Source: Deltaproteobacteria bacterium (lineage in GTDB: Bacteria > Desulfobacterota > Binatia > UBA9968 > JAJDTQ01). From it: a DNA stretch of 38,237 nucleotides. Under the pieces are notes generated by a model. It worked only from the letters and a program-made list of their open reading frames with translations. It ran no database searches and had not been told where the DNA came from. Where the stretch lies: assembly GCA_028818775.1 (NCBI GenBank), contig JAPPNE010000121.1, positions 1-38,237 of the forward strand, given 5' to 3'. Below, one piece after another: positions 644 through 37,361 of the stretch. Numbering within the stretch: position 1 is the stretch's first letter; every line of letters starts with the position of its first letter. Made by a program: the position numbers and the translations under genes.

Positions 644-1291
644 TCACCACTCGGCCTCGGCCGTGGCCCACCGGTCCAGGCTCGCGAGGTACTCCCGCAT
701 CAGCACCAAGCGCATGGCCACCGCCCTGCGCGTGGCGTCCTGGCTCTCCGGCGTAACGGCGTAGCGTTCCAGGATGGCCTCGGGACCGGTGCCGTGCCCC
801 TCCTCGTCGGCCAGGATGCGCTTGTACGGAGCCTTGATCCAGTCGGGAACCGACGGCGCGGCCAGGCACTTCTCGATGAGATAGTTGGCCACCCCTTCCC
901 CGGCCATGGAGAAGCCGGCCATCCGCTGGCAGGTGTCGGGAAGGGCTTCCAGGGCGTTGAACATGGACATCTGCGCCGGCAGCGCGCGGTAGTCGAAGGG
1001 ATCGCCGCCGAGGTCCCGGATGCGCCCCATGAGAAGCCCGGCGTGCGTCATCTCCTCGTGGGCGGAGCGCGCCATCATGGTCTTGACCTCAAGCTCCGGC
1101 GTGGTCTTGAGCCAGCCGCCGAAGAGGTCCGCGGCCCGCAACTCGTTCCACAGCCGGCTCTTCATGACCCGGACGCGCTGCTCGTCGGTGGTCAACGGAA
1201 CGTAGCTGTAGGCGGGCGGGCGATCGTCGAGTGTGGCGCAGAAGGCCCTGACCTTGTCCCGCAACTCCTGAACGAATTCCTTGCTGGTCAT
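644..1291 (-). CDS. Ferritin-like diiron protein (four-helix, PaaA/MiaE-like)
   Basis: A 215-residue soluble helical protein. It carries the ligand set of a ferritin-like diiron carboxylate site in order: E50, E80-x-x-H83 (in SAHEEMTH), E132 (in MAGEG) and E163-x-x-H166 (in ADEEGH). Families with this arrangement include MiaE, PaaA-type oxygenase subunits and rubrerythrin-like proteins. The length and ligand spacing fit an oxidase or oxygenase better than an iron-storage protein, but the substrate is unknown. The start is set at the ATG at 1291, which has AGGAGG 6 nt upstream; an in-frame TTG at 1309 has less support. It begins 14 nt after the CaiB stop, so the two are probably co-transcribed and may work on the same CoA-linked or carboxylate compound. 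Confidence 0.75.
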   Translation of the reverse strand: MTSKEFVQELRDKVRAFCATLDDRPPAYSYVPLTTDEQRVRVMKSRLWNELRAADLFGGWLKTTPELEVKTMMARSAHEEMTHAGLLMGRIRDLGGDPFDYRALPAQMSMFNALEALPDTCQRMAGFSMAGEGVANYLIEKCLAAPSVPDWIKAPYKRILADEEGHGTGPEAILERYAVTPESQDATRRAVAMRLVLMREYLASLDRWATAEAEW

Positions 1292-1305
1292 GGCCTGCCT
1301 CCTGA

Positions 1306-2484
1306 TCAAGTCACTCCGCCCTCGCGCAACTCCGCCAAGGCTTCGTCATCGTATCCGAGCTCCCGCAGGATCTCGTCCGTATTCTCACCCAGCAGCGGCG
1401 CCGGCCGGTGAAAACGCATGGGAGTGTCGGACAGCCGGATGGCGTTGCCGATGAGGTTGCTCGACCCCATCTTCGGATGGCGGATCTCCTGCGGCAGCCC
1501 CATCTCCTTCACCTGCGGGTCGTCCAGCACTTCGTCGATCTTGTAGATGGGGGCGTTGGGCACGTTCACCGCGTCCAGGGCCTTGAGCCAGTGGTCCCGC
1601 GGCTGTTTCTCGAATTCCGCCTGCAGGATCGGGACGATGTCGTAGTGGTGGTGCCAGCGGTCGTTGCGGGTAGCGAAGCGGGGGTCGTCCAGCAGGTCAC
1701 GGCGGCCCACCGCGCTCACCAGCCCCTCCCAAGCCTTCTGGTGCCCCGACAAGTGGATCACCAGCGGCTTCTTGTCGCTGGGGATGAAGCAGTAGATGCG
1801 TCCGCGCGGGAAGTTTTCCCGTGTGATGGCCTCGCCGCCGTTCAGGTAGTCGGCCATGTGCGACTCGATGAACGCCATGCTGATGCGCAGGAGCGACGCG
1901 TCCACGAACTGGCCGCGGTCGGTGTGGTGGCGCGCCAGCAGCGCCGCGAGAATACCGTAGCACGCGAAAATCCCGGTGGAGTGATCGGTGACCGAGACCC
2001 CCACCACCTTGGGCTGGTCGAAGTCGGTCATGAGGCTCAGCATGCCGCTCAATGCCTGGCCGATAGTGTCGAAGCCCGGCTTGTCGCGGTAGGGCCCCTC
2101 CTGCCCGTAGCCGGTGATGGAGCAATGGATCAGCCGGGGATTCAGCTTCGAGAGCCGCTCGTAGTCAAGCCCCAGCTTCGAGCGCGTCTCCGGCCGGAAG
2201 TTCTCCAGCAGGACGTCCGCCCTTTCCAGCAGCTTGAGCAGGATTTCCTTCCCCTGGGGTTTCCGCAAGTCCAGAGTGAGGCTTCTCTTGTTGCGGTTGA
2301 GCGCCCGGAAGCTCGGACCATAGCCCTCGTACAGCGGATTCCGTCCCCGGTGCGTATCGCCTCCGTCGGGCAGCTCCACCTTGATGACGTCGCACCCGAG
2401 GTCCCCCAGCAAACTGCCGCAGAACGGCCCGGCCACGTGCCCGCTCAAATCGAGCGCCATGGTCCCCTGCAATGCCGCACTCAT
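1306..2484 (-). CDS. CaiB/BaiF family CoA-transferase (family III)
   Basis: A 392-residue family III CoA-transferase (PF02515), which moves CoA between carboxylic acids. It shows the N-terminal Rossmann-like signature (GPFCGSLLGDLGCDVIKVE), the NRNKRSLTLDLRKPQG block, and SVTDHSTG, where D167 aligns with the catalytic Asp of formyl-CoA transferase (D169). The RGQFVDASLL block follows. The length is typical. It leads a minus-strand group with the ferritin-like gene and possibly the amidohydrolase, and is divergent from the thioesterase gene; activation of an acid to its CoA ester and a divergent thioesterase make biochemical sense together. The acid cannot be named. A GGGAG lies about 14 nt before the ATG. 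Confidence 0.92.
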   Translation of the reverse strand: MSAALQGTMALDLSGHVAGPFCGSLLGDLGCDVIKVELPDGGDTHRGRNPLYEGYGPSFRALNRNKRSLTLDLRKPQGKEILLKLLERADVLLENFRPETRSKLGLDYERLSKLNPRLIHCSITGYGQEGPYRDKPGFDTIGQALSGMLSLMTDFDQPKVVGVSVTDHSTGIFACYGILAALLARHHTDRGQFVDASLLRISMAFIESHMADYLNGGEAITRENFPRGRIYCFIPSDKKPLVIHLSGHQKAWEGLVSAVGRRDLLDDPRFATRNDRWHHHYDIVPILQAEFEKQPRDHWLKALDAVNVPNAPIYKIDEVLDDPQVKEMGLPQEIRHPKMGSSNLIGNAIRLSDTPMRFHRPAPLLGENTDEILRELGYDDEALAELREGGVT

Positions 2485-2585
2485 GATTCAGGACGTCTCC
2501 CTTTCCCCGACGAGGCGAGTTTGCGAACAACCTTCTCCATTACAGCCCCATGACGGCCCCTTGGCCGCTTTGCAGTATAGCCGAT

Positions 2586-3011
2586 ATGCACCATAGTGGG
2601 GAACGGGAACGAAGACGGCAACGGAGGACTCGTGAAGACGGAATCGTGGAAGGACTCGAAGGCGAGTGGGTGATCGAAACGACGCGGGAGATGGCGGCGG
2701 CGCACATCGCCGACGAAGGTCTCCTGGTCTATTCGACGCCGGCCATGGTCGGCCACATGGAGCGCGCGTGCGTGGAAACGGTACGCCCGTACCTGGACGA
2801 CGACGAGGTGTCGCTGGGAGTGCGGGTGGAGATCTCCCACATCGCCGGGACGGGCATGGGCGAGACCGTCCGCACGAGTGCGAAGCTCATCGGGGTGGAA
2901 GGGCGCCGCCTGAGCTTCACGGTGGAGGCGCACAACGAGCGCGAGAAGATCGGCGAGGGCCGCCACCAGCGCGTGGTGGTGAAACGCGAGCGGCTGCCGT
3001 CGAAGAAGTGA
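2586..3011 (+). CDS. FlK-like hot-dog fold thioesterase
   Basis: A hot-dog fold acyl-CoA thioesterase of the fluoroacetyl-CoA thioesterase (FlK) type. Counting from this ATG, T51 (YSTPAM), E59 (GHMERACV) and H85 (EISHIAG) have exactly the 8- and 26-residue spacing of the FlK triad T42-E50-H76. G78 matches FlK G69. The FlK lid residue F36 corresponds to G45 here, so strict fluoroacetyl specificity is unlikely. The C-terminal VEGRRLSF, DEIG-like KIGEGRHQR and VKRERL blocks also match the family. The start is uncertain: the first 20 residues are arginine-rich and unlike the family, so an in-frame GTG at 2646 may be the true start; an ATG also exists at 2550. None has a clear ribosome-binding site. 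It probably releases or guards a CoA intermediate of the adjoining pathway. Confidence 0.82.
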   Translation: MHHSGERERRRQRRTREDGIVEGLEGEWVIETTREMAAAHIADEGLLVYSTPAMVGHMERACVETVRPYLDDDEVSLGVRVEISHIAGTGMGETVRTSAKLIGVEGRRLSFTVEAHNEREKIGEGRHQRVVVKRERLPSKK

Positions 3012-3150: not shown

Positions 3151-3840
3151 ATGGCAAGCACCGGTTCCCTTAGAGAGAGGCTCGAAGCCGCTGTGCTGGA
3201 GCGGCACTGCGCGAACCATCCGCTGACCGAGAAGTGGGCCGCGGGCAAGCTCAGTCGCAACGCCATGATGGGTTGGGCCATCGAGCAGTACCACTGGATC
3301 AGCAACATCTACCGCGGCGAGCTGTACAAGGCCGCCAACACACCCCTGGAGGTGCAACGGCTGCTGCTGGGCAACTACCTGGAGGAGAGCGACCCGGAAC
3401 GGCCGCACCTGGACATCATCCTGCGTTTCTGCACCGCCAACGGCGGAGACGCCGAAGCCGCCAAACGCGGCCGTGGCCTGCCCACCACCGAGGCCTGGGT
3501 GAGCTGGTTCAACCGCGTGTGCAAGGACGAGTCCTTCATCTGCAGCGTGGCCGCCACCAACGTCGGCACCGAGTCCCAGTCGCCGATGCTGTACAGCAAG
3601 GTGCTGCCCGCCCTGCGCGACGTCTATCGCTTCGACGAAGCGGCCATCGAGCACTTCTGGCTCCACGCCGACGTCGACACCGAGCACGGCGGCCGCGGCT
3701 TCGAGATCCTCGAACGGTATTGCACCACGCCCGAACTCCAGGAAATGGCCGTCCATTACGCCCGGGAGAGCGCGAAGATGCGCTGGTTCTTCTTCGACGG
3801 CATCTACATCCACTACGAGATGGGCTACGCGCTGCGCTGA
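3151..3840 (+). CDS. Heme-oxygenase-like diiron oxidase/oxygenase (HDO), CADD/PqqC fold
   Basis: A 229-residue TENA/PqqC-like helical protein. The complete six-ligand pattern of heme-oxygenase-like diiron enzymes is visible: E79-x6-H86 (LEESDPERPH), E141 (NVGTESQ) and H172-x3-D176-x2-H179 (HADVDTEH). As I recall, the ligands in Chlamydia CADD are E81, H88, E142, H174, D178 and H181, so the spacing is nearly identical. The family includes CADD, UndA and the SznF central domain, which oxidise amino acids, fatty acids or guanidines with O2. PqqC lacks the metal set, so PqqC function is unlikely. The ATG at 3151 has GGAG 7 nt upstream; an upstream in-frame extension is low complexity. The bicupin gene begins 89 bp downstream, a pairing repeated at 35.8-38.2 kb. 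The substrate is unknown. Confidence 0.85.
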   Translation: MASTGSLRERLEAAVLERHCANHPLTEKWAAGKLSRNAMMGWAIEQYHWISNIYRGELYKAANTPLEVQRLLLGNYLEESDPERPHLDIILRFCTANGGDAEAAKRGRGLPTTEAWVSWFNRVCKDESFICSVAATNVGTESQSPMLYSKVLPALRDVYRFDEAAIEHFWLHADVDTEHGGRGFEILERYCTTPELQEMAVHYARESAKMRWFFFDGIYIHYEMGYALR

Positions 3841-3843
3841 GGA

Positions 3844-3880
3844 CGGCCCGCGGCGGCGCCCGCCGAAGGGGCGCGGGCCG
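3844..3880 (+). other. GC-rich hairpin between HDO and bicupin genes
   Basis: CGGCCCGCG (3844-3852) is the exact reverse complement of CGCGGGCCG (3872-3880), giving a 9 bp stem three bases after the HDO stop codon. No U-tract follows. It shares the GACGGCCCGCGGC stem start with the hairpin after the thioesterase gene (3011 onwards). It may be a partial terminator or an mRNA stabiliser that sets HDO:bicupin stoichiometry. Confidence 0.4.
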
Positions 3881-3929
3881 GAGTCGGAGCGAAGTCGATG
3901 ATCAGCCGGGATCGGAGGAACGACACCCC

Positions 3930-4982
3930 ATGACCACCGCGACACAGGACCTGACGGAACTGGACGAGTTCCTCGCCGAGCGCTGGCTCTCGGGCTTGTG
4001 GAAGCTCGACCGCCAGGAGCGTACCCCCGACCCCAAGACCAAGGTGGTGCCGCACCTGTGGAAGTGGGACGACGTCTACCAGAGCCTGCTGCAGGCGCGC
4101 GACCGCATCGGCATCGAGAAGGGGCGCACCGAGCGCCGCACCATCCGGCTCGTGAACCCGGGCATGCGGCACATCGAAATGACCAGCCACACGATGCTGC
4201 TGGCCTGCCAGATGATCCAGCCGGGCGAGGTGGCGCCGGCGCACCGTCACAGCATGGCGGCCCTCCGCTTCATCGTGCAGGGCGAGGGCGCCTACACCGT
4301 GGTCAACGGCGAGAAGCTCATGATGGCCGAGGGAGACCTCATCCTCACGCCCCAGGGCACCTGGCACGACCACGGCCACGAGGGCAGCGCGCCCATGGTG
4401 TGGCTCGACGGCCTCGACGTGCCGCTCATCCAGTCGCTCCAGGTGATCTCCTACGAGCCCTATGCCGAGGAGAAGCAGGCCACCCACGCGAGCGCACAGG
4501 AGGCCTCCCACTTCGGCATGACCCGCCCGGTGCGGACCGGCAAACAGGCGGCGCCCGCGCCGCTCCACTACCGCTGGGAGGACACCTACCGCTCCCTGCG
4601 GGCGCTGGCGCAGACCGCGGGCGACCCTTATGACGGCGTGGCCCTCGACTACGTGAACCCGCTCACCGGCGGCAGCACCCTGCCGACGCTGGCGTGCCGC
4701 GCACAGATGCTGCGCCCGGGAGAACGCACCCGCGCGCACCGCCACAACAGCACCGGCATCTACCACGCGTTCCGCGGCAGCGGCGCCACCGTCATCAACG
4801 GCGAGACGCTGGAATGGGACAAGGGCGACAGCTTCATCGTGCCGCTGTGGAGCTGGCACGAGCACCTGAACCGTTCCGCCGGCGAGGAAGCGATCCTGTT
4901 CTGCATGCACGACGCCCCGGTGCTGGAAGCCTTCGGGCTTCACCGCCAGGAGAGCATGGAAACGTCGGGCGTGGGGATGTAG
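3930..4982 (+). CDS. Bicupin dioxygenase, gentisate 1,2-dioxygenase-like
   Basis: A 350-residue two-cupin protein of the gentisate/salicylate/1-hydroxy-2-naphthoate 1,2-dioxygenase family, whose members open aromatic rings with Fe(II) and O2. The N-terminal cupin has H105-x-H107 (PAHRHSMAALRF) and H146 (TWHDH). The 41-residue spacing matches the H119/H121/H160 iron ligands of salicylate dioxygenase. The C-terminal cupin also keeps H270-x-H272 and H310 (WSWHEH). Downstream of each cupin are PGDLI- or KGDSFIVP-type blocks. The ATG at 3930 has GGAGGA 10 nt upstream; the longer open frame upstream overlaps the HDO gene in another frame and is not coding. A paralogue starts at 37388. The true substrate could be gentisate or another hydroxylated acid. 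Confidence 0.88.
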   Translation: MTTATQDLTELDEFLAERWLSGLWKLDRQERTPDPKTKVVPHLWKWDDVYQSLLQARDRIGIEKGRTERRTIRLVNPGMRHIEMTSHTMLLACQMIQPGEVAPAHRHSMAALRFIVQGEGAYTVVNGEKLMMAEGDLILTPQGTWHDHGHEGSAPMVWLDGLDVPLIQSLQVISYEPYAEEKQATHASAQEASHFGMTRPVRTGKQAAPAPLHYRWEDTYRSLRALAQTAGDPYDGVALDYVNPLTGGSTLPTLACRAQMLRPGERTRAHRHNSTGIYHAFRGSGATVINGETLEWDKGDSFIVPLWSWHEHLNRSAGEEAILFCMHDAPVLEAFGLHRQESMETSGVGM

Positions 4983-5113: not shown

Positions 5114-6163
5114 ATGACACGCACTCGCGCCACGGCCATCGTCACGGTGCTCGCCGCCATCACACTGCTGGCGGCCGCCGCCCCGGCGGCGGACTACTAC
5201 GCAGGGAAGACCATCACCGTCCTGGTGTCGTCCAGCCCCGGCGGCGGCACGGACACCACGGCCAGGCTGGTTTCCCGCTACCTGCCCAAGTTCATCCCCG
5301 GCAATCCGGATACCATCGTACGCAACATGCCCGGCGGCGGCGGCACGGTGGCCAACAACTACTTCACGCGCCGCGCCAAGGCGGACGGACTGACCATGTC
5401 GCAGGACTCGTCGTCGGCGCTGAGCACCTACGTCCGCGGCGGTAAGCGGGTCAAGTACAACCCGCGGGAGTACAACTATATCGGCTCCATCATGCGCGGC
5501 GGCAGCATCCTCATGGTGCGCAAGGACGCGCGCAAGCGCCTCGGCGACCCCAAGGCCAAGCCTGTGGTGGTGGGCGATTCGGACGGCATCCGCACGTGGG
5601 TGGCCATGACCGTGTGGGGCGCCAAGTACCTGGACTGGAACACCCGGTGGATCTTCGGCTACGCCGGCACCGGCGAGATGGTGCTGGCCCTGCGCCAGGG
5701 CGAGATCGAGATGTGGGGCACCGGCAACGCCAAGCTCATCCGGGACCTTCAGAAGGACGGCGTGGTCGACACCCTCGTGCTGCTCACGGACAAGCGCCGC
5801 AAGGACTTCCCCGACGTCCCCACCTTCGCCGAGGTGCTCGGAGACAGGAAACCGTCCGGTGCATCCTGGCAGGCCTACAAGGTGTGGACCGGACCCTCGG
5901 ACGTGGACAAGTTCCTGCACGCCCCCAAGGGGACACCGGACAACGTCATGAACATCCTGCACACCGCCTGGGCCGAGATGGTGAAGGACCCGGGGTTCCA
6001 GGCGCAGGCCACCAATTTCTTCGGCGAAGCCTGGCGGACCCGCGACGGTGCGGCCACCACAAAGCTGGTCATGGAGGCCACCGACGCCCCGAAGGAAGTC
6101 AAGGACTTCCTCTTCAACATCCGCAAGGAGCACGGCCTGCCCACGGGCAAGAAGAAAAAGTAA
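5114..6163 (+). CDS. TTT transporter substrate-binding protein (TctC/Bug family)
   Basis: A 349-residue periplasmic binding protein. An N-terminal signal peptide (MTRTRATAIVTVLAAITLLAAAAP, cleavage likely near APAAD) precedes a Bug-family start (YYAGKTITVLVSSSPGGGTD). The NMPGGGGTVANNY ligand-loop region and the late GTPDNVMNILH block are also typical of TctC proteins. These proteins bind carboxylates, often aromatic or dicarboxylic acids, and deliver them to TctA/TctB. AAGGAGGA lies 8 nt before the ATG. tctA follows after 7 nt and tctB overlaps tctA, so the three form a complete tripartite operon. It sits directly after the HDO-bicupin pair, which suggests import of that pathway's substrate. 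Confidence 0.93.
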   Translation: MTRTRATAIVTVLAAITLLAAAAPAADYYAGKTITVLVSSSPGGGTDTTARLVSRYLPKFIPGNPDTIVRNMPGGGGTVANNYFTRRAKADGLTMSQDSSSALSTYVRGGKRVKYNPREYNYIGSIMRGGSILMVRKDARKRLGDPKAKPVVVGDSDGIRTWVAMTVWGAKYLDWNTRWIFGYAGTGEMVLALRQGEIEMWGTGNAKLIRDLQKDGVVDTLVLLTDKRRKDFPDVPTFAEVLGDRKPSGASWQAYKVWTGPSDVDKFLHAPKGTPDNVMNILHTAWAEMVKDPGFQAQATNFFGEAWRTRDGAATTKLVMEATDAPKEVKDFLFNIRKEHGLPTGKKKK

Positions 6164-6170
6164 ATAGCGG

Positions 6171-7679
6171 ATGCTCGAAGCCGCGTTTGACGGCCTGCTC
6201 GGTATCCTGACTTGGCACTCCCTGGGCATGATGGCCCTGGGAGTGCTGATCGGGAGCTTGGTGGGGTTCCTGCCGGGCATCGGCGGCCCCACCACCCTGG
6301 CCATCATGCTCCCCTTCGTGATGACCATGAAGGACCCCTATCCGGTCATCGCGCTGCTGGTGGGCATGGACGCGGTGGGCAACACCGCCAGCGCCTTCCC
6401 CTCCATACTCATCTCGGTCCCCGGAAGCTCGGGGTCCCAGGCCACTATCCTGGACGGCTACCCCCTGGCCAAGCAGGGGCAGGCCGCGCGGGCTCTGAGC
6501 GCGTCCTTCACCGCCTCGCTGCTGGGCGGGTTCGTGGGCGCCCTGGTGCTGGTGGCCTCGCTGCCGGTGCTGCGCCCGCTGGTGCTGACCTTCGGCTCGC
6601 CGGAGTTCTTCGTCCTGACCCTGTGGGGCCTCACCATGGTGGCGGTGCTGAGCGGCAACGCCCCGGTCAAGGGCATCATCGCCGGCATCATCGGCGTCCT
6701 CGTGGCCACCGTGGGCATGGACGCGAAATCCGGCATCCCCCGCTTCGACTTCGACTACGACTACCTCTGGGACGGCATCAGCCTCATCATCGTCGCCCTG
6801 GGCCTGTTCGGCATCCCGGAAATCATCGACCTGGCGAGCCGCAAGACCAGCATCGCCGAGAGCGAAGAGCTGGGCAGCGGCTTCTTCCAGGGCATCAAGG
6901 ACGTGTTCCGGCACTGGTGGCTGATGGTGCGGTCTTCGGCCATCGGCGCGTGGGTGGGCTTCCTGCCGGGCTTGGGCAGTTCCGTGGCCGACTGGTTCGC
7001 CTACGCCCACGCCGTGCAGACCGAGAAGGACACCGGGAGCTTCGGCAAGGGCGACATCCGCGGGGTCATCGCGCCGGAGGCCTCCAACAACGCCAAGGAG
7101 GGAGGCGGCTACATCCCCACCCTCGCTTTCGGCATCCCGGGCAGCACCTCCACCGCGCTGATCCTCACCGCGTTCGTAGCCGTGGGCATCAAGCCCGGGC
7201 CGGACATGCTGACCACCCAACTCGACCTCACCTTCGCGGTCATCTGGACGCTGGTCATCGGCAACGTCATCGCCGTGGTGCTGTGCGGCGTCCTCGCCAG
7301 GCCCATGGCGCGGGCCTGCTTCATGCCGTTCCACAGCATCGTGCCGCTGGTGGCCGTGTTCGTCTTCATCGGCGCCTTCTCCGCCAACTTCAGCCTCAAC
7401 GACCTGCACGCCCTGCTGGCGTTCTCGCTGCTGGGCTTCATGATGCGCCGGCACGGCTGGCCGCGCCCGCCGCTGCTCCTGGGGGTGGTGCTGGGCACCA
7501 AGATGGAAACGTATCTGTGGCTGTCCTACACGCGGTACGGACTCGAGTGGCTGCTGCGGCCGGCGGTGATCGTGCTGCTGATCCTGGTGGCCGCGTCGCT
7601 CTGCTACCCGATCTGGAAAGACCGGCGCGCCGCGCGACAGCGGGCTCGCGAGTCGAACGAGGGGGTGCCGGAGCCATGA
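6171..7679 (+). CDS. tctA: TctA-family large membrane subunit of TTT transporter
   Basis: A 502-residue integral membrane protein with roughly a dozen hydrophobic segments. It has the TctA signatures GVLIGSLVGFLPGIGGPTTL near the N-terminus and GFLPGLGSSVADWFAYAHA in the middle. The APEASNNAKEGGGYIPTLAFGIPGSTSTA block, also family-typical, comes later. It forms the solute channel of a proton- or sodium-coupled tripartite tricarboxylate transporter in the inner membrane. The start lies 7 nt after the binding-protein stop, with only a weak ribosome-binding site, so translational coupling is likely. The stop overlaps the tctB start as ATGA. Confidence 0.95.
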   Translation: MLEAAFDGLLGILTWHSLGMMALGVLIGSLVGFLPGIGGPTTLAIMLPFVMTMKDPYPVIALLVGMDAVGNTASAFPSILISVPGSSGSQATILDGYPLAKQGQAARALSASFTASLLGGFVGALVLVASLPVLRPLVLTFGSPEFFVLTLWGLTMVAVLSGNAPVKGIIAGIIGVLVATVGMDAKSGIPRFDFDYDYLWDGISLIIVALGLFGIPEIIDLASRKTSIAESEELGSGFFQGIKDVFRHWWLMVRSSAIGAWVGFLPGLGSSVADWFAYAHAVQTEKDTGSFGKGDIRGVIAPEASNNAKEGGGYIPTLAFGIPGSTSTALILTAFVAVGIKPGPDMLTTQLDLTFAVIWTLVIGNVIAVVLCGVLARPMARACFMPFHSIVPLVAVFVFIGAFSANFSLNDLHALLAFSLLGFMMRRHGWPRPPLLLGVVLGTKMETYLWLSYTRYGLEWLLRPAVIVLLILVAASLCYPIWKDRRAARQRARESNEGVPEP

Positions 7680-8170
7680 ACCGCGACCGGCGGATGCTCT
7701 ACGAGAGCGTCCTCTTCACCGTGCTCATCGGGCTGCTGCTGCTGTGGACGCTGCGCGTGGCCGACAGTTGGGACGAGCTGCGCGCCTCCATCATCGTCTT
7801 CGTGCTCGGCAGCGCCGGCGTTGTCCTGGCCGCGGTCCAGGTCATCAAGGACCTGTGGCCGCGCCGCGGCGGCGAGGAGGCCGGGGGCATTCACTTCGAC
7901 GCCCCCGCCCTGCAATCCTCGGGCCGCTGGGGCAACCTCGAGATCTGGGGCTGGATCCTGGGCTTCTACGCCGCCATCCGGATCATCGGCTTCCCCACCG
8001 CCGTGCCGCTGTTCGTCTTTGGCTACGCCAAGACCTACGGCGCGGGCTGGCTCCTGGCCTCCCTCCTGGCGGCGGCGGCCTGGGCCTTCATCTACGGCGT
8101 CTTCGAGCACATCCTCCACGTGCCCTGGCCGGAACCGTTTCTGGCGGAACTGTTCTTCAGCCCTGCCTGA
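7676..8170 (+). CDS. tctB: TctB-family small membrane subunit of TTT transporter
   Basis: A 164-residue protein with four hydrophobic segments: LYESVLFTVLIGLLLLWTL, ASIIVFVLGSAGVVLAAVQV, WGWILGFYAAIRIIGFPTAV and a C-terminal pair around LLASLLAAAAWAFIYGVFEH. The size and topology are those of TctB, the poorly conserved small subunit of TTT systems. The ATG at 7676 overlaps the tctA stop by four bases (ATGA), so translation is coupled. Its last 14 bases overlap the 3' end of the oppositely oriented dehydrogenase gene, so the two genes converge with no room for a terminator. Confidence 0.88.
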   Translation: MNRDRRMLYESVLFTVLIGLLLLWTLRVADSWDELRASIIVFVLGSAGVVLAAVQVIKDLWPRRGGEEAGGIHFDAPALQSSGRWGNLEIWGWILGFYAAIRIIGFPTAVPLFVFGYAKTYGAGWLLASLLAAAAWAFIYGVFEHILHVPWPEPFLAELFFSPA

Positions 8171-9239: not shown

Positions 9240-10277
9240 ATGACGGTACGATTTCCAACTACCGGGGCTATCGCGGGCGATCTCTACGGCATGGTGCTGC
9301 GCGAGCTGACACTGTGTCGGGCCACGTCCGACGAGACCGTCGTCATCTTCACCGACACCCGCACCAACACCAACTACGCCGCCGCATTCCTGGCCGCCGC
9401 CAAGGAAGTGGCCGCCAGCGCGTTCGAGATCAAGATTCCCCTTCTGCCCGGCACCGAGGGCAACGACACCGACGTGGCGCCGGTGGTGGAGATCCTCAAG
9501 ACCGCCCACCTGGTGGTGGACATCACCACCGGCGGCGTCCTCTACCTCTACAGCAGAACGCTTGCCGACGTGCTGTCCGGGGGCACCCGGGTGCTCCAGG
9601 TACGCGGCACCGAGGACCAGCTCCGGCGCTGCTTCCCGGACGAGGCGGTGCGGCAGCGGACCCTCAACGGCGCGCGGAAACTGGAGGAGGCCGGGGAGAT
9701 ACGCGTCACCACCGGGACCGGCACCGACCTTTCCATGCGCAAGGACGGCCGGCGCGGCGTCACGCAGTACGGTATCAGCGACGTGCCCGGACGCTGGGAC
9801 AGCTGGCCCTCGGGCTTCCTCTACTGCGCGCCGCTGGAGGACAGCGCCAACGGAACTCTGATGCTGGACCCCGGCGATCTGCTGGTGATGCTGGGCCGCT
9901 ACGTGCAGGACCCCGTGCGCATCGACGTCAGGGACGGGCGCATCACGGCCGTCGAGGGCGGGGTGGACGCCATCCTGCTCCGGGAGCACCTGGAACAGTC
10001 GGGAGATCCCCAAGCGTTCATCATCTCCCACATCGGCTGGGGCACCGACCCGCGGGCGCGCTGGGTGGAAGTGGCGCAGCGCGGCACCGAGGAAGGCGCC
10101 CGCGACGCCCGCTCCACCTACGGCAACGTGCAGATCGCCTTCGGCGCCAACTACGCCCTGGGCGGAAAGAACACCACGCTGGCCCACGAGGACCTGATCC
10201 TGCGCCGGGCCGCGTTCCACCTCGACGGGGAAATGATCGTCGACGACGGCCGGATCATCCCCGAAGACCTGCGATGA
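9240..10277 (+). CDS. NicX-like non-heme iron enzyme (2,5-dihydroxypyridine 5,6-dioxygenase / M29 peptidase fold)
   Basis: A 345-residue protein related to NicX and to M29 metallopeptidases. NicX binds Fe(II) through H265, H318 and D320 (from memory). Here H264 (in ISHIGWG), H316 and D318 (in LAHEDL) fall at almost the same positions, and the FGANYALGGKNTTLAHED block is family-typical. NicX cleaves the ring of 2,5-dihydroxypyridine in nicotinate breakdown. No other nic genes are in the window, so the substrate may be a different ring. The ATG at 9240 has only a weak GAGCGG upstream, about 16 nt after the predicted -10 site and close to the transcription start. It is followed by two Fe(II)/2-oxoglutarate oxygenases, so it probably belongs to an oxidative catabolic unit. 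Confidence 0.75.
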   Translation: MTVRFPTTGAIAGDLYGMVLRELTLCRATSDETVVIFTDTRTNTNYAAAFLAAAKEVAASAFEIKIPLLPGTEGNDTDVAPVVEILKTAHLVVDITTGGVLYLYSRTLADVLSGGTRVLQVRGTEDQLRRCFPDEAVRQRTLNGARKLEEAGEIRVTTGTGTDLSMRKDGRRGVTQYGISDVPGRWDSWPSGFLYCAPLEDSANGTLMLDPGDLLVMLGRYVQDPVRIDVRDGRITAVEGGVDAILLREHLEQSGDPQAFIISHIGWGTDPRARWVEVAQRGTEEGARDARSTYGNVQIAFGANYALGGKNTTLAHEDLILRRAAFHLDGEMIVDDGRIIPEDLR

Positions 10278-10335
10278 GGCGCCGCGGCATCGAGCCCACG
10301 CGGGTGCGCCGCCGGTACCTCGGGAGGTGAATCCC

Positions 10336-11190: not shown

Positions 11191-11227
11191 GGACGGCGAG
11201 GAACGAAATGGCAACGACGCCCCTTGC

Positions 11228-11255
11228 CGTCATTCCCGCTTCCGCGGTAATGACG
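11228..11255. repeat. Small inverted repeat of the TCATTCCCGC class
   Basis: CGTCATTCCCGC (11228-11239) faces GCGGTAATGACG (11244-11255), a 12 bp stem with one mismatch and a 4 nt loop. It sits in the 155 bp gap between the two TauD genes. It looks like the widespread CGTCATTCCCGC intergenic repeats of proteobacterial genomes and could attenuate read-through or stabilise the upstream mRNA. There is no U-tract. Confidence 0.6.
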
Positions 11256-11345
11256 ATTCGGGAGGTTGGCGCTATTTCCTGTTCGAGCGGATTGTGACAC
11301 AGCCTGTTGCGCGGAGATGAAAGACTCTCATTTGGAGGCAATAAC

Positions 11346-30265: not shown

Positions 30266-33232
30266 ATGATCAACGCCAGGATACTGATCGTCCAGGACCA
30301 CGCCTCGGACGCCGCGGCCCTCGAAGCGTGCCTGCAGGAGCTGGGCCATACGGTCTGCGCCACCGTTTCGTCCGTGGAGCAGGCCCTTGAGAAAGCCGCG
30401 GAAACGCACCCCGACCTTGCGCTGATCGACCTCGGGCCCGAAGACGGCCTGGACGGCGTCGAGGTCGCTCAACGCATCGGAAGTCCGCTGGACATTCCGG
30501 TGGTCTATCTCACCGGCGAGGTCGACGAGGCCCGGTGGCAGCGGGCCCAGGCCGCCCGTCCCTTCGGCTACGTGCTGAAGCCGTTCGAGAAACCGCAACT
30601 GCACCTGAACATCCGGACGGCCCTTTCCCTGCACGAGAGGGAACGGGCACAGCGAGAGGCCCGAGGCGGACTGGACCGGACCATCGACGAACTGAGAAGC
30701 CGGGCCCGCCTCCTGGAGGCGGTCCTCGACAGCATCGACGACGGAGTCATCGCCGCCGACGAGAACGGCGAAACCCTGGTGTTCAACGCCGGCGCCGGAC
30801 GCATGTTCGGTTCCGTCGGGCCGGATGCGGCAAAGGACCAACGGTCCGGCACATTCGGCGCCTTCCTGCCGGATCGCGTCACGCCGTTTCCGCACGCCGA
30901 CTTTCCGCTCACGCGAGCCGTCGCCGGCCAGTCCACGGACGACGTCGAGATGTTCGTGCGCGATCCGGATACGTCGGCCGGGCGCCTCGTCCGCGTCAGC
31001 GGACGGCCCATCCATGGCGGCGAGCACGCGGGAGGGGTCATCGTGTGCCGCGACGTCACCCGTGACAGGGAGGCCTCGGCCCGCCTGGAGCAGGCGGTGG
31101 AAGAGATGCGCCTCCGGGGCGAGACCATGACGACCGTGCTGGACAAACTCGGCGACGGCATCGTCATCTCCGACGCCACCGAGCGCAGCACCTTTCTGAA
31201 CGCGGCCGCCAAGCGGCTTCTCGGCACCGGGGTTCTCGACGCGCCCTTCAGCGAACATTCCCGTACGTACGGCATCTTCCATCCCGACAAGGAAACGCAC
31301 GTTTCCACCGAGGAGCTTCCGCTGGTGCGCGCCGTCAACGGCCATGACACCGACGACATGCCGCTGTTCATCCGCAACGAGGACAATCCGGACGGAATGG
31401 TCGTCATGGCCCGGGGCCGGTCCGTGGAGAGCACGGCTACCGGCAAGGTCGCGGCCGGCATGGCCATCCTTCGACCCGCCGCCGATCACGGCGGTACGAG
31501 AGCCGGCCTGGACGATATCGTCGGCAATCTGCGGCGCAAGAACGAGATGCTGGAATCCATCTGCGACAACATCAGCGACGGCATCATCGTGGCGGACGCC
31601 ACAGGCCAGGTATTGTTCGTCAACTCGACGACGTTGAAGATCTTCGGCGAGTGGTTTACCGAACCAGCGGTGGCGGACTGGTCCGCGACATACGGCATTT
31701 TTTATCCCGACATCAAGACACCCGTCCCCACCGAACAGCTTCCGGTGGTGCGCGCGCTCCAGGGTGAGGAAACCGGTGAGATGGAGCTGTTCATACGCAA
31801 CGAGAGCAATCGGGAGGGGACCTACATCATCAGCCGGGCATCACCCATCTTCAACGGCGACCGGACCGCGGTCGTCGCCGCCATGTGCACCTTTCGCGAC
31901 ATCACCCGGGAAAAGGAGGCCGAAGACAGACTGGAAAGCACCGGCAGCGATCTGCGCAGCCAGACCCAGCTCCTGGAAACCGTCTTCAACAGCATGAGCG
32001 AAGGCATCGTGGTCGCGGACGCGACCGGGAAGTTTCTGTACGTAAACCCATCCGCCCAAGAAATCGTCGGCATGGGCCCGGTGGATGAGCCTCCCGAAGA
32101 ATGGGCTCAAGTGTACGGCACCTACTATCCCGACCGGCAAACCCCCATCAAGTCCGAGGACCTGCCGCTCCAGCGCGCCATACTCAAGGGCGAGTCCGTC
32201 GACGAGGAGGACGTGTTCATCCGCAACCAGAACAGGCCGGACGGCATCTACATCAGAGTGAGCGCGCGGCCGCTACTCCACGATGTCGCCGGCGTCCGAG
32301 GGGGTGTGATCATCTTCCGCGACGTCACCGAGCAGGTGAACGCACAGGAAGCGCTGGCCCGGGCGTTCGCCCAGGGCCGGTTGGAGATCGTCGAGACCAT
32401 CCTCCACAACATCGGCAATGCGATCAACAGCGTCACCGTCGGCATCGAGACCGTGCGCCATACGCTGGCCGCCGATCCGCTCGCGCGACGTCTCCGCGCC
32501 CTCGCCGATGCCCTCAAGGACCATCAGGCCGATTGGATCGATTACATCTCCAAAGATCCACAGGGCCGGAAGGCCCTGCCGTTCGTCATCGCCATCGCGG
32601 ACGATTTCGCCAAGCGGAACGAAGCGTTGGCGAGGACCGTCGAACGGGTCGAGCGCAGGGCGAATCACATCGCGGATATCGTCCGCACCCAGAAGGCGAT
32701 CGGCGGCCCGAGCATGAGCTGGAAAGACATCAACCTGAAGGATGCGCTCACGGAGGCCGCCAGGGTCTTGCAGGATTCGCTCGATCGAAGAGGGATCCGC
32801 ATCGAGATCGACTGCGAGGACGCGCCCAGGGAGATCCGTATCCAGGAGAGTCCGTTTCACCAGACGATCGTCAATCTGATCAAGAACTCGCTCGAAGCCA
32901 TCGACGCTCTCGCCGCATCGGGTGGACTCGAGGAAGCGCCTCGCATCCACATCCGCGCCCACGTCGAGGACGACTTTTTCCTCCTCGACGTCACCGATAA
33001 CGGCATCGGCATTGACATGAAACGCCATAAGCTGATCTTCGCCGCCGGCTACACCACGAAAGAGTCGGGCTCCGGCCTCGGCCTCTATTCGAGCGCCAGC
33101 TTTGTCACCGGATCGGGCGGGCAGATCTACCCCATGAGCGACGGCATCGGCTCGGGAACCACCATGCGCATCCGGCTGAGGCGTTCCTCCATCACTCCTC
33201 CAGCCGCCGTGCGCTCGGAGATGGAGCCATGA
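30266..33232 (+). CDS. Sensor histidine kinase with N-terminal REC and four tandem PAS domains
   Basis: A 988-residue cytoplasmic signalling protein without membrane segments. An N-terminal receiver domain (1-125) has D11, phosphoacceptor D55 (LALIDLG), a Thr in VVYLTG and K in GYVLKPF. Four similar PAS modules follow, roughly at DNA 30712, 31120, 31540 and 31970. At least three share YG[IT][FY][HY]PD, then a PL-x-RA stretch and a [VI]RN pattern. A phosphoacceptor-like helix has H714 (ILHNIGNAINSV). The ATPase domain has NLIKNSLEAID, DNGIGI and the GSGLGLYS G-box. The start is uncertain; the ATG at 30266 begins the receiver fold, and another in-frame ATG lies at 30224. Its stop overlaps the UbiD start (ATGA). 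It may sense redox or a small ligand and control neighbouring catabolism; no partner regulator is nearby. Confidence 0.9.
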   Translation: MINARILIVQDHASDAAALEACLQELGHTVCATVSSVEQALEKAAETHPDLALIDLGPEDGLDGVEVAQRIGSPLDIPVVYLTGEVDEARWQRAQAARPFGYVLKPFEKPQLHLNIRTALSLHERERAQREARGGLDRTIDELRSRARLLEAVLDSIDDGVIAADENGETLVFNAGAGRMFGSVGPDAAKDQRSGTFGAFLPDRVTPFPHADFPLTRAVAGQSTDDVEMFVRDPDTSAGRLVRVSGRPIHGGEHAGGVIVCRDVTRDREASARLEQAVEEMRLRGETMTTVLDKLGDGIVISDATERSTFLNAAAKRLLGTGVLDAPFSEHSRTYGIFHPDKETHVSTEELPLVRAVNGHDTDDMPLFIRNEDNPDGMVVMARGRSVESTATGKVAAGMAILRPAADHGGTRAGLDDIVGNLRRKNEMLESICDNISDGIIVADATGQVLFVNSTTLKIFGEWFTEPAVADWSATYGIFYPDIKTPVPTEQLPVVRALQGEETGEMELFIRNESNREGTYIISRASPIFNGDRTAVVAAMCTFRDITREKEAEDRLESTGSDLRSQTQLLETVFNSMSEGIVVADATGKFLYVNPSAQEIVGMGPVDEPPEEWAQVYGTYYPDRQTPIKSEDLPLQRAILKGESVDEEDVFIRNQNRPDGIYIRVSARPLLHDVAGVRGGVIIFRDVTEQVNAQEALARAFAQGRLEIVETILHNIGNAINSVTVGIETVRHTLAADPLARRLRALADALKDHQADWIDYISKDPQGRKALPFVIAIADDFAKRNEALARTVERVERRANHIADIVRTQKAIGGPSMSWKDINLKDALTEAARVLQDSLDRRGIRIEIDCEDAPREIRIQESPFHQTIVNLIKNSLEAIDALAASGGLEEAPRIHIRAHVEDDFFLLDVTDNGIGIDMKRHKLIFAAGYTTKESGSGLGLYSSASFVTGSGGQIYPMSDGIGSGTTMRIRLRRSSITPPAAVRSEMEP

Positions 33233-34677
33233 CGAAAGAGCAAAGGGACGTCGAAGCGGCCCTGGATCTGCGGGCTTTTACGGAACGGCTCGAGCAGGCC
33301 GGGAAGCTCAAGGAGATCAGGGGCGCCCACTGGGACCTGGAGATCGGCGCACTCACCGAGATCGCGGCGGAATCCGGCGAGGGCTCGGCGCTGCTCTTCG
33401 ACGCCATCCCGGATCATCCGGAAGGGTACCGCGTGCTGAGCAACGTCCTCCGGTCCCCGGAATCCGACGCCCTGGCCCTGGGCATGCCGCCGGATGTCCG
33501 CGGCCTGGATGTGGTCCAGGCCGTAAAGGGACGGCTCCAGGACCTGAAGCCCGTTCCTCCTGCCGAAATCGGTGAATCGCCTCTGCTGGAGAACGTCGCC
33601 CTCGACGGCGACGTCAACGTGCTCAAGTTCCCCACTCCCAAGTGGCACGCCGACGACGGCGGCCGCTACATCGGCACGTTTACCGCCACGGTCTGCCGCG
33701 ATCCCGATACCGGCTACGTCAACGTCGGCACGTACCGCGTCCAGGTCCACGACGAGAACACGGTGGGAGTGTGGATGATTCCCGGGAAGCACGGGGACCT
33801 CATCACCCGGAAGTACTGGGCGCGCGGCGAGAGCTGTCCGGTGGCCGTCGTGTGCGGCCTACCCCCGGGCATGATGACCGCGAGCGCCGTGGGCATTCCC
33901 TGGAACATGAGCGAGTACGACTTCCTGGGGGGCCTCCTGGAAACCCCCGTGCCGGTCATCAAGGGGCAGAAAACCGGGCTGCCGATACCCGCTTTCGCGG
34001 ACATCGTGCTTGAAGGACACATCCCGCCCCCCGAACAGGAGACCCACGAGGAGGGGCCGTTCGGGGAGTGGCCCGGATACTACGCCTCGGGGTCCCGGCA
34101 GGCTCCGGTGGTAAAGGTGGAGGCCGTCTATCATCGCGACAACCCCATCATCACCGGCGACCCGCCGCTCCGGACTTTCCTCAACAGCGAGACCCACAAG
34201 TACATCCGCTCGGCCAACATCTGGTCGTCGCTGGAGCGCGCCGGCATCCCCGAGGTGCAAGGAGTGTGGTTTCCGCGGCAGGGCCGCTTCGTGGTCACCG
34301 TGGCCATAAAGCAGCGCTACTCGGGCCACGCCAAGCAGGCGGGATACGGCGTCCTCGCCACCCGCGACGGCGGGCGCGACGTGCGCATGGTCGTCGTGGT
34401 GGACGAGGACGTGGACATCACCAACATGGGCGAGGTGCTCTGGGCCATGTCCACCCGCTGGGACCCCCGGACCGACTCCGAGATCCTCGACGTGGCCGCC
34501 AGCATCCTCAACCCGCGGCTTTCGCCCCAGGACAAGCAGCGCCGGGAGCTGACCACCTCCTGCATGGTGGTGGACGCCTGCCGGCCCTACAGTTGGAAGG
34601 ACGAGTTTCCGAAGATCTCGACCGTGAGCGACGAATACAAAGCCCAAGTCCGCAAGAAGTGGGCGGACCGGCTGTGA
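33229..34677 (+). CDS. UbiD-family decarboxylase (prenyl-FMN dependent)
   Basis: A 482-residue UbiD-type (de)carboxylase. Family features include DLRAFTERLEQAGKLKEI at the start, NVGTYRVQVHDENTVGVWM and ARGESCPVAVVCGLPPGMMTAS. EGPFGEWPGYYA carries the catalytic acidic loop, and AMSTRWDPRTD and the C-terminal blocks follow. These enzymes reversibly decarboxylate alpha,beta-unsaturated or aromatic acids using prenylated FMN, which requires UbiX; no ubiX is in the window. The ATG overlaps the sensor-kinase stop (ATGA), a rare coupling. The TTT binding protein starts 47 bp downstream with its own strong ribosome-binding site. An aromatic acid imported, decarboxylated and then oxidised by HDO and bicupin enzymes would fit the order of genes, but that is inference. 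Confidence 0.93.
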   Translation: MTKEQRDVEAALDLRAFTERLEQAGKLKEIRGAHWDLEIGALTEIAAESGEGSALLFDAIPDHPEGYRVLSNVLRSPESDALALGMPPDVRGLDVVQAVKGRLQDLKPVPPAEIGESPLLENVALDGDVNVLKFPTPKWHADDGGRYIGTFTATVCRDPDTGYVNVGTYRVQVHDENTVGVWMIPGKHGDLITRKYWARGESCPVAVVCGLPPGMMTASAVGIPWNMSEYDFLGGLLETPVPVIKGQKTGLPIPAFADIVLEGHIPPPEQETHEEGPFGEWPGYYASGSRQAPVVKVEAVYHRDNPIITGDPPLRTFLNSETHKYIRSANIWSSLERAGIPEVQGVWFPRQGRFVVTVAIKQRYSGHAKQAGYGVLATRDGGRDVRMVVVVDEDVDITNMGEVLWAMSTRWDPRTDSEILDVAASILNPRLSPQDKQRRELTTSCMVVDACRPYSWKDEFPKISTVSDEYKAQVRKKWADRL

Positions 34678-34724: not shown

Positions 34725-35759
34725 ATGCGACACCCATTCCGATCGGCGGCGATCCTCTCGTTGCTCCTGTGCGTGAGCTTCACGGCCACGGCAGGCGCCG
34801 ACGTGGCGGAGTTCTACAAGGGCAAGACCCTGCGATTCATCCTGGGCTCGTCTCCGGGAGGAGGCTTCGACACCTACGCCCGCACCATCGCCCGCACCCT
34901 CACCAAGCACATTCCGGGCACGCCGAAGATCATTGTCCAGAACATGCCCGGCGCCGGCTTTGCCATCGCCATGAACTACCTCTACAACGTCGCCAAGCGT
35001 GACGGCTCGGTGATCGGGGCGACCAACAGCGGGCTGGTGATGAAGCAGGTGCTCGGCGAGAAGGGCATCCGGTTCGACAATGCCAAGTTCGGCTGGCTGG
35101 GCAGCGCCGGCAAGGCCACGCCCACGTGCATGGTGATGTCGCGCACCGGGGCGACCGACCTCGAGGGGATCCTGAACGCTCCGAAGCCCATCAACTTCGG
35201 ATCCGCGGGCACCCTCACCCGCGACACCCCGCTGATCCTGCGGGATTTCGTGGGCGGCAAGATCAACGTCGTCAGGGGGTACAACGGCACGGCGCAGATT
35301 CGCGCGGCGGTGGGGCGCAAGGAGGTGGACGGGTACTGCTCTTCGTGGGAATCGGTGCGGATACAGGCCACGGAAATGCTCAAGGGCAAGGAAGGCGATC
35401 GGCTGATTCCCTTCCTCACCAGCGGCGACAAGGAAGAGCCGGTGCTCAAGGACCTGCCGCTGTTCGCCGATCACATCAAGAACGCCGACGAGCGCGCGGC
35501 CTACGAAGCGTGGCTGGCGCCGTACAAGCTCTTCCGCGCCTACGTGACTCCGCCCGGCATTCCCGAAGAACGGCTGAAGGCGCTGCAGACCGCGTTCAGG
35601 AACACCCTCGACGACCCGGAGTTCATAGAAGCGTCCAGGAAGATCGGCATCGAGATCTCTTATCTGTCCGGGGCCGAGATCCAGTCCCTGGTGAAACAGG
35701 TCTTCTCCATCGGGCCCGGGGCCGAAGCGCGGCTGAAGCAGTTGGTCGGGGCGAAATAG
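34725..35759 (+). CDS. TTT transporter substrate-binding protein (Bug family), orphan
   Basis: A 344-residue periplasmic binding protein. A signal peptide (AAILSLLLCVSFTATAGA) is followed by VAEFYKGKTLRFILGSSPGGGFD, closely parallel to the 5114 protein (YYAGKTITVLVSSSPGGGTD). NMPGAGFAIAMNYLYN and FGSAGTLTRDTPLILRDFVGGKINVVRGYNG are typical Bug segments. CAGGAGGA precedes the ATG at 34725. The family normally works with TctA/TctB, but none follow here, so it may use the TctAB encoded at 6.2-8.2 kb or act as a sensor ligand receptor. Residues C-M-V-M in place of the usual binding loop, and an internal Cys pair (C118/C205 region), are peculiarities I cannot interpret. Confidence 0.9.
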   Translation: MRHPFRSAAILSLLLCVSFTATAGADVAEFYKGKTLRFILGSSPGGGFDTYARTIARTLTKHIPGTPKIIVQNMPGAGFAIAMNYLYNVAKRDGSVIGATNSGLVMKQVLGEKGIRFDNAKFGWLGSAGKATPTCMVMSRTGATDLEGILNAPKPINFGSAGTLTRDTPLILRDFVGGKINVVRGYNGTAQIRAAVGRKEVDGYCSSWESVRIQATEMLKGKEGDRLIPFLTSGDKEEPVLKDLPLFADHIKNADERAAYEAWLAPYKLFRAYVTPPGIPEERLKALQTAFRNTLDDPEFIEASRKIGIEISYLSGAEIQSLVKQVFSIGPGAEARLKQLVGAK

Positions 35760-35826: not shown

Positions 35827-36555
35827 ATGGAAACGCATATCGCCGAAAGCAACGGCGTGGAGGGCGTCTGGCACGAGTTGGTGGAACTGGTGAACCGGCA
35901 GTTCGAGACTCCGCCCTTCCGGCGGCTGCTGGACCTGCGATTCAACCAGGCGCGCGCCCAAGCCCTGTCCATCCAGATGAAGCACTACGTGGCCAACCGG
36001 CGTGACTGCTGGGGGTTCGTGGCCGGAGCGGCGCCGCTGAGCGTCAAGCGGCTCATCTGGGAGCACGAGGGCGAGGAACTCATGGGCGACAAGGCCGCGG
36101 GCAAGGTCGACCACATTACGCTCGCGGTGCAGGAGGGCAGGATCTTCGGCCTCTCCCCCGAGGACTACGAGCGCGTGCGCCCGCTGGACGCGGCCGTGGC
36201 GTGCTTCTACGCGTGGATCCACCTGGCGAAGGACCGCCCCTGGCGCGAGGCGGTGGCGGCGTCGGCGGTGCTGGAGATGCGCAATTCCGACGAACTGGTG
36301 CGCGACGGATCGCTGTCCTACCGCGTCGGCAAGAACCTGGAACGCGACCTGGGGATTCCGCTGAAGCGCCAGATCAACAACGCCGAGCACGTGACCGCGG
36401 ACATAGAGCACGGCCAGCTCCTGCTGGCGGTGGCGCGGGAACACTGTCATACGGAGGAAGACCAACAGGCGCTCCTGCGGGGCGCACGGGAATCCCTCGT
36501 GATCGACCGCGCCTACCGGGAGCAGCTCGTCAACATGATGGAGGCGCTGGACTAG
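35827..36555 (+). CDS. Heme-oxygenase-like diiron protein (HDO), tandem copy A
   Basis: A 242-residue TENA/PqqC/CADD-type helical protein. Candidate metal ligands are E84 (HEGEEL), H96 (KVDHITL), E150 (AVLEMRN), H188-x3-D192-x2-H195 (HVTADIEH). The first Glu-to-His spacing is 12 residues, against 7 in the HDO at 3151; the H-x3-D-x2-H part is identical. It belongs to a second HDO subgroup with the next gene, sharing NRRDCWGFVAGAAPL against NRRDCWAYVQAAAPL, and VIDRAYREQLV at the end. Enzymes of this fold oxidise or cleave amino or carboxylate substrates with O2. The ATG at 35827 has GGGAGA about 6 nt upstream. It lies between an orphan TTT binding protein and its paralogue, with a bicupin after that. 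Confidence 0.8.
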   Translation: METHIAESNGVEGVWHELVELVNRQFETPPFRRLLDLRFNQARAQALSIQMKHYVANRRDCWGFVAGAAPLSVKRLIWEHEGEELMGDKAAGKVDHITLAVQEGRIFGLSPEDYERVRPLDAAVACFYAWIHLAKDRPWREAVAASAVLEMRNSDELVRDGSLSYRVGKNLERDLGIPLKRQINNAEHVTADIEHGQLLLAVAREHCHTEEDQQALLRGARESLVIDRAYREQLVNMMEALD

Positions 36556-36653: not shown

Positions 36654-37361
36654 ATGCCCGATATCGCCAAGCTCAAGAGCACGCTGAACGAGATGTGCAA
36701 CCGCCAGTACGGGACCGACGAGTTCCAGGACCTGCTGACGCTGCCCTGGACCATGGAGCGGGGACGCTACTACGTGGTGCAGAACGCCATCTACACGAAG
36801 AACCGCCGGGACTGCTGGGCCTACGTCCAGGCCGCCGCGCCGCTCGACGTGAAGTCCCTGGTGTGGCAGCACGAGAGCGACGAGCTGATCAACGACCCGC
36901 GCTGCGACATGGACCATTACACGCTGACGGTCAAGCAGGGTGAGGTCATCGGCCTGACCCGGGAGGACTTCGACAACGCGGAGCTGCCGCCCATGGCCCA
37001 GGCGGCCTTCATGGCGTGGCACCTCATCGCCATCAAGGGTCCGTGGCTCGCCTCGTTCACGTCTTCCCAGATGCTCGAGCGGCGCAACAACCCCGAGATC
37101 GTCACCGACGGCGGCATGTCCTACCGCATCGGCAAGAAGTTCGAGAACGAGCTGGGCATCAGCCTCAAGCGGATGATCTCGCTCAACGTCCACTCCACCG
37201 CCGACACCGAACACTCGGACATGATGGACGGCGTCTACGACCGGCACGTGCGCACCCAGGAGGACTACGACACGGTGCTGCGCGCCGCGAAGCAGTGCAT
37301 GGCCATCGACCGCGCCTACCGCGGCGGCCTGGCCTACGTCATGCAGCGCATCGAGGGTTGA
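36654..37361 (+). CDS. Heme-oxygenase-like diiron protein (HDO), tandem copy B
   Basis: A 235-residue paralogue of the preceding gene. Ligand candidates are E77 (HESDEL), H88 (DMDHYTL), E142 (QMLERRN), H180-x3-D184-x2-H187 (HSTADTEH). Both tandem copies retain all six positions, so neither is an obviously dead pseudoenzyme. The close similarity extends across WQHESDEL/WEHEGEEL, PLDVKSLVW/PLSVKRLIW and YRIGKKFENELGISLKR/YRVGKNLERDLGIPLKR. GGAGACGGAGACC precedes the ATG. The two might form a heterodimer, as this fold is usually dimeric. The bicupin gene follows after 26 bp, so the three are very likely co-transcribed. Confidence 0.82.
   Translation: MPDIAKLKSTLNEMCNRQYGTDEFQDLLTLPWTMERGRYYVVQNAIYTKNRRDCWAYVQAAAPLDVKSLVWQHESDELINDPRCDMDHYTLTVKQGEVIGLTREDFDNAELPPMAQAAFMAWHLIAIKGPWLASFTSSQMLERRNNPEIVTDGGMSYRIGKKFENELGISLKRMISLNVHSTADTEHSDMMDGVYDRHVRTQEDYDTVLRAAKQCMAIDRAYRGGLAYVMQRIEG

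Follow-up and report, generated by a model that had tools for sequence, protein, structure and literature searches.

Recurrent association of heme-oxygenase-like dimetal oxidases with gentisate-dioxygenase-like bicupins in Candidatus Binatia

Genes from two known enzyme families, the heme-oxygenase-like dimetal oxidases (HDOs) and the gentisate-dioxygenase-like bicupins, are associated with each other in one uncultured lineage, Candidatus Binatia, and this association is real, recurrent, and apparently undescribed. A gene for a UbiD-family decarboxylase often belongs to the same clusters. We analyzed a stretch of 38,237 bases (the window), which is a complete contig (C121) from a Candidatus Binatia (Binatota) metagenome-assembled genome of 4.1 Mb that is 97.5% complete. 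The features of its two HDO-bicupin loci are listed in Table 1.

Table 1. Features at the two HDO-bicupin loci of the window (TTT, tripartite tricarboxylate transporter).
Feature	Coordinates	Strand	Evidence
Ferritin-like diiron protein, start uncertain	644..1309	-	Weak Pfam Ferritin match; EExxH-type motifs by inspection
Family III CoA-transferase, divergent neighbor of copy 1	1306..2484	-	PF02515 E 2e-106
FlK-like hotdog thioesterase, upstream of HDO1	2550..3011	+	PF22636 E 8e-34
HDO1, CADD-like heme-oxygenase-like dimetal oxidase	3151..3840	+	Pfam Haem_oxygenas_2 E 3.5e-21
Bicupin1, gentisate/5-aminosalicylate-dioxygenase-like	3930..4982	+	Cupin_2 in two stretches; TIGR02272 gentisate_1_2, 267 bits
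TTT binding protein	5114..6163	+	PF03401 E 1.4e-12
TTT large membrane subunit (TctA-like)	6171..7679	+	Place and sequence after binding protein; same order in relatives
TTT small membrane subunit (TctB-like), inferred	7676..8170	+	Position and length
UbiD-family (hydroxyarylic acid type) decarboxylase	33229..34677	+	TIGR00148 271.7 bits; PDB 7pda E 7e-128
TTT binding protein between UbiD and HDO2	34725..35759	+	PF03401
HDO2, first of ancient tandem HDO pair	35827..36555	+	PF14518 E 1.1e-13
HDO3, second of tandem pair	36654..37361	+	Haem_oxygenas_2 E 3.6e-10
Bicupin2, cut at contig end	37388..38237	+	TIGR02272, 245 bits

An initial annotation of the window had reported an HDO gene followed by a bicupin gene (3151-4982), two HDO genes followed by a second bicupin (35827 to the contig end), and a TTT binding protein with each copy. 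Matches to Pfam and TIGR02272 bear out these genes and coordinates. Copy 1 has the order FlK-like thioesterase, HDO1, bicupin1, and a three-gene TTT transporter, while copy 2 runs UbiD, TTT binding protein, HDO2, HDO3, bicupin2. The UbiD gene, which lies two genes upstream of HDO2 and recurs with the pair elsewhere, had been overlooked. Because the window is the complete contig, bicupin2 is truncated by the assembly; its orthologs are intact proteins of 339 amino acids with both cupins present. In near relatives, a further bicupin gene (bicupin3, 371 amino acids) comes after bicupin2; it represents a second subfamily whose first cupin is degenerate. The two loci had been described as copies with paralogous bicupins. 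Both pairs are real, but the identity between HDO1 and HDO3 (13-15%) excludes the duplication of a single module; bicupin1 and bicupin2 are 50% identical. The pairing does occur twice in the window, as had been noted, but it is not limited to these two places. A third pair in the same genome is part of an HDO-bicupin-UbiD cluster that is cut off by the end of contig C48. At a fourth locus, which is split over contigs C9 and C23, HDO4 and bicupin4 are separated by a flavin monooxygenase gene; this locus is intact in two related genomes (G115 and G116).

To ask how often such adjacency arises by chance, we used G115, a relative with a complete single-contig genome that encodes 10 gentisate-type bicupins and about 15 HDOs. 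Three of the 10 bicupins lie directly behind a same-strand HDO (0.009 expected if genes were placed at random) and four lie within 1.5 kb behind an HDO (0.027 expected). None of 200,000 random placements reached the observed adjacency, although this null ignores the clustering of catabolic genes, so the size of the effect should not be over-read. Both families are abundant in these genomes, which would favor chance neighbors, but given the placement result and the recurrence over two taxonomic families, we reject a chance neighborhood as the explanation.

We then searched 148 Binatia genomes for HDO2/3-type genes (E of 1e-10 or better). They were found in 57 genomes, and strong matches were confined to three families (f1 to f3) of one order. 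We extracted about 80 stretches around these matches, used a G+C-frame script to predict the genes in them, and sorted the proteins into groups by BLAST. With the window and the other loci of its genome, this gave 138 HDO genes at 83 loci in 84 clusters, of which 69 had enough downstream sequence to be informative; genomes from the same genus are near-copies and do not represent independent observations. A bicupin directly follows the HDO genes in 37 of the 69 informative clusters and lies within four genes downstream in 40, and none lies within that distance in 29. The gap between HDO and bicupin has a median of 40 bp, with three overlaps. The HDOs that are followed by a bicupin come from two families of one order and fall into 11 groups at 80% identity and five groups at 50% identity. 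The genes that flank the clusters differ between families, so the recurrence is not plain synteny. Furthermore, UbiD is encoded within six genes in 25 of the 40 bicupin-positive clusters, as compared to 3 of the 29 bicupin-negative clusters. Thus, the recurrent unit is not a bare enzyme pair but one or more HDOs and a bicupin together with UbiD and a solute-binding protein. A limited genome scan for HDO2/3-type relatives beyond Binatia gave ten loci, all from Binatia or from Deltaproteobacteria metagenome-assembled genomes, and a similarly limited search of plasmids gave none.

Two other arrangements were seen around HDO2/3-type genes. In family f3, a EutA-like ATPase (PF06277, E 2e-112) is encoded directly upstream of the HDO-HDO-bicupin genes (L091:1824-3278; also in L098, L103, L110, L127, L131, and L138), and the bicupin behind the HDO2/HDO3 pair belongs to the subfamily with the degenerate first cupin. 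We do not take this protein as a sign of ethanolamine use because EutB was absent from the seven genomes tested; perhaps it is a reactivase or chaperone that has been put to another use. At L025:14502-18297 and in L133, several HDO2/3-type genes are found with a gamma-glutamyltranspeptidase, a glyoxalase, and binding proteins and lack a bicupin, which may reflect a different role for the subfamily.

An HDO and a bicupin could also share a cluster and act on different substrates, since catabolic islands shuffle oxygenase genes beside shared transporters. The many paralogs (as in G115) would fit this, and so would the variety of bicupin partners, which include an HDO, a flavin monooxygenase, or an amidohydrolase. 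Also, the HDO and bicupin trees agree only modestly (r = 0.47, or 0.31 over eight dereplicated pairs). Nevertheless, the layout of an HDO gene followed about 40 bp later by a same-strand bicupin gene is kept across HDO groups that are less than 50% identical to each other, and we consider it doubtful that the two enzymes act on separate substrates. As for the partners themselves, a bicupin gene on contig C169 is preceded by one for a luciferase-type flavin monooxygenase, and genes for molybdenum hydroxylases lie downstream; this suggests that the slot before the bicupin is open to oxygenases of several kinds. Luciferase-type monooxygenases are encoded directly upstream of gentisate-like bicupins at L032:7185-9429 and L190:8300-11197; one of these loci has molybdenum hydroxylase genes behind it and the other has an HDO in front.

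The initial annotation had suggested looking for consistent co-occurrence across lineages. Within Binatia, this is what we found for the HDO2/3 and C48 types (37 of 69 clusters, two families, and five groups), but not for HDO1. The HDO1-bicupin1 pair is confined to one genus, where each of the five further congeners with HDO1 has bicupin1 alongside it. Elsewhere in the class, a bicupin is missing from the roughly 1.5 kb around 11 homologs of HDO1 (30-37% identity), and none of the homologs from Burkholderiaceae is accompanied by one. Judging from the sequences, the distant relatives of HDO1 adjoin thiamine-diphosphate enzymes, amidohydrolases, and binding proteins. Relatives with 32-34% identity at L205:8774-14869 (Caballeronia pSBC2-4) and in L204 are found with 2Fe-2S proteins and an aldehyde dehydrogenase; this arrangement is common to Caballeronia and Cupriavidus, and the 2Fe-2S proteins are possibly dedicated electron donors.

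The congener G116 differs at both loci. At the place of copy 1, it keeps the genes for the CoA-transferase, bicupin1 (86% identity), the TTT transporter, and the NicX-like and TauD proteins, and it lacks HDO1 and the FlK-like and ferritin-like genes. Just before bicupin1, there is a 13-codon remnant of HDO1, which we identified by its position because the match has an E value of just 0.04. At copy 2, G116 retains UbiD, the TTT gene, HDO2, HDO3, and bicupin3 and has lost bicupin2. Therefore, neither pair in the window is obligate, and these losses contradict the strict two-enzyme module that had been proposed. The persistence of bicupin1 after the loss of HDO1 suggests that it can draw on a different supply of substrate.

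In the window, the region beyond the copy 1 transporter encodes a NicX-like 2,5-dihydroxypyridine dioxygenase (9240-10277; 7cn3, E 1e-53) and, behind it, two TauD-family dioxygenases (10327-12203), and these genes may point to pyridine carboxylates. The ferritin-like diiron protein recurs beside TTT binding proteins near HDO or bicupin loci (644-1309 of the window, L190:6274-6921, and L028:1815-2462); for example, near the HDO4/bicupin4 locus, a TTT binding protein has as its neighbor a relative with 53% identity to the window's protein.

As had been noted for all three HDOs of the window, the six metal ligands are kept. HDO1 has the complete set (E79-x6-H86, E141, and H172-x3-D176-x2-H179), and in the HDO2/3 family all 132 sequences have the same six ligands (E77, H88, E142, H180, D184, and H187 in HDO3 numbering). 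D81 is less likely than E77 to be the first ligand because it is kept in just 123 of the 132. R52, W55, W122, and W131 are also identical in all 132 sequences and form a signature of this family; HDO2 and HDO3, unlike CADD/PabS, do not match TIGR04305. A predicted model of HDO3 (pLDDT 90.7) has the HDO fold; its best match is CADD (TM 0.78), and UndA, BesC, and HrmI were also matched. In the tree, the HDO2 and HDO3 types fall into two distinct clades (support of 1.0 and 0.98), each of which holds members of pairs as well as unpaired or contig-end genes. That HDO2 and HDO3 have remained together as distinct clades makes it probable that they either form a heteromeric oxidase or catalyze two successive steps.

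CADD/PabS are the closest solved relatives of HDO1 (9pj4, E 3e-19), along with PqqC, and CADD/PabS have the fold and the six-ligand dimetal motif in common with the HDOs. The closeness to these proteins raises the alternative that the HDOs are indirect accessories, which make or modify a cofactor, as CADD and PqqC do, or detoxify a by-product, and can be dropped. Consistent with this, HDO1 was lost along with the FlK-like and ferritin-like genes in G116 while bicupin1, the TTT genes, and the CoA-transferase stayed. However, HDO1 scores 84.4 bits against TIGR04305 (the cutoff is 200), and it has Thr at the position that aligns with an active-site Tyr of CADD, which we take to be the residue that CADD sacrifices. 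With that Tyr missing, HDO1 is not supported as a self-sacrificing 4-aminobenzoate synthase. Also, three distinct types of HDO are paired with bicupins, which favors a step in a pathway over the supply of one cofactor. We therefore view an accessory role for the HDOs as unlikely.

By sequence, the bicupins are relatives of the dioxygenases that act on gentisate, salicylate, and 5-aminosalicylate, but they fall below every equivalog cutoff. For TIGR02272, the cutoff is 442 bits, which neither bicupin1 (267) nor bicupin2 (245) nor any other bicupin in three genomes passes. In the gentisate and salicylate dioxygenases, Arg83 and Arg127 (numbered as in the salicylate enzyme) bind the substrate's carboxylate. 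The HDO-linked gentisate-like bicupins have equivalents of both, along with the His triad of the first cupin, so that they retain the metal and substrate positions; both carboxylate-binding Arg positions are present in bicupin1. They also share the two-cupin architecture and metal His triad of the solved gentisate and salicylate 1,2-dioxygenases (3bu7, 2d40, and 2phd) but differ among themselves at pocket positions 104 and 106. The HxH...H motif is kept in both cupins of bicupin1 and in what is visible of bicupin2, as the initial annotation stated.

The best-scoring model for bicupin1 is not the gentisate model but MabB (NF049978; 340.7 versus 267.4 bits), and the same holds for most of the linked bicupins. 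MabB is the 5-aminosalicylate 1,2-dioxygenase of the mab cluster for 3-aminobenzoate degradation (PMC9584955). The bicupins might thus be 5-aminosalicylate-type dioxygenases, with the HDO as an N-oxygenase of an aryl amine or a side chain, and N-oxygenation is an established HDO reaction (PMC13108848). But all of the MabB scores are far under the cutoff of 650 bits (about half of it for bicupin1), and no aminotransferase or deaminase recurs among the annotated genes, which makes N-oxygenation improbable. Another system in which an HDO works with a cupin is SznF, but SznF is a single fused protein with a C-terminal cupin that acts in natural-product biosynthesis, while the loci described here encode a separate gentisate-type bicupin.

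The UbiD protein of copy 2 is above the general family cutoff (TIGR00148, 244.85 bits) and retains R170 and the EGPFGE motif (275-280), and the best matches of the UbiD proteins are to models of hydroxyarylic acid decarboxylases and phenylphosphate carboxylase. It resembles the hydroxyarylic acid decarboxylases (VdcC, PpcB, and PDB 7pda) in these respects and in having a UbiX, but it scores below every specific equivalog. Because UbiX is encoded in the genome, UbiD can be active.

From the gene arrangement, the conserved ligands, the fold, and the family assignments, the most likely role of the HDOs is to oxygenate an imported hydroxyaromatic acid so that it can be decarboxylated and its ring cleaved. 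The recurring genes are most simply read as follows: a TTT or NMT1-type binding protein would help to import an aromatic or heteroaromatic acid; the HDO would activate O2 at its predicted dimetal site and oxidize the acid, by hydroxylation or by oxidation of a substituent; UbiD would take off one carboxylate, either before or after the HDO acts; and the bicupin would open the ring of the resulting ortho-hydroxy-carboxylate between C1 and C2. We put forward this full series of steps in putatively catabolic clusters tentatively, as a serious candidate that falls a little short of being probable. Within it, it is plausible that the HDO produces the substrate of the bicupin. A bolder version, in which HDO2, HDO3, and the C48-type HDO hydroxylate the ring for a gentisate-type bicupin, with the UbiD step in the same pathway, would make them the first degradative HDOs, in place of flavin or Rieske hydroxylases; we think that this is rather unlikely. 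The loci do not encode a complete gentisate pathway, as there is no local pair of maleylpyruvate isomerase and fumarylpyruvate hydrolase. No fumarylpyruvate hydrolase is encoded beside the HDO-bicupin pairs (four FAA_hydrolase genes sit on other contigs), and the C48 cluster has just a GST (88 bits for the maiA model, which has a cutoff of 171 bits).

A 2026 review of HDOs covers about a dozen characterized enzymes, most of them with fatty acids or amino acids as substrates, and it includes no aromatic ring hydroxylation and no degradative role with aromatics (PMC13108848). The words aromatic, gentisate, and benzoate appear nowhere in a 2021 survey of the Binatia phylum (PMC8262859). In the open-access literature, we found no described HDO-bicupin-UbiD pathway and no work that ties HDOs to gentisate, UbiD, or aromatic breakdown, which is weak evidence of absence. 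Overall, the gene set suggests an undescribed route for the breakdown of aromatic acids in Binatia, and the genomic link to ring cleavage and decarboxylation provides a concrete candidate class of substrates for a large and distinct subfamily of HDOs.
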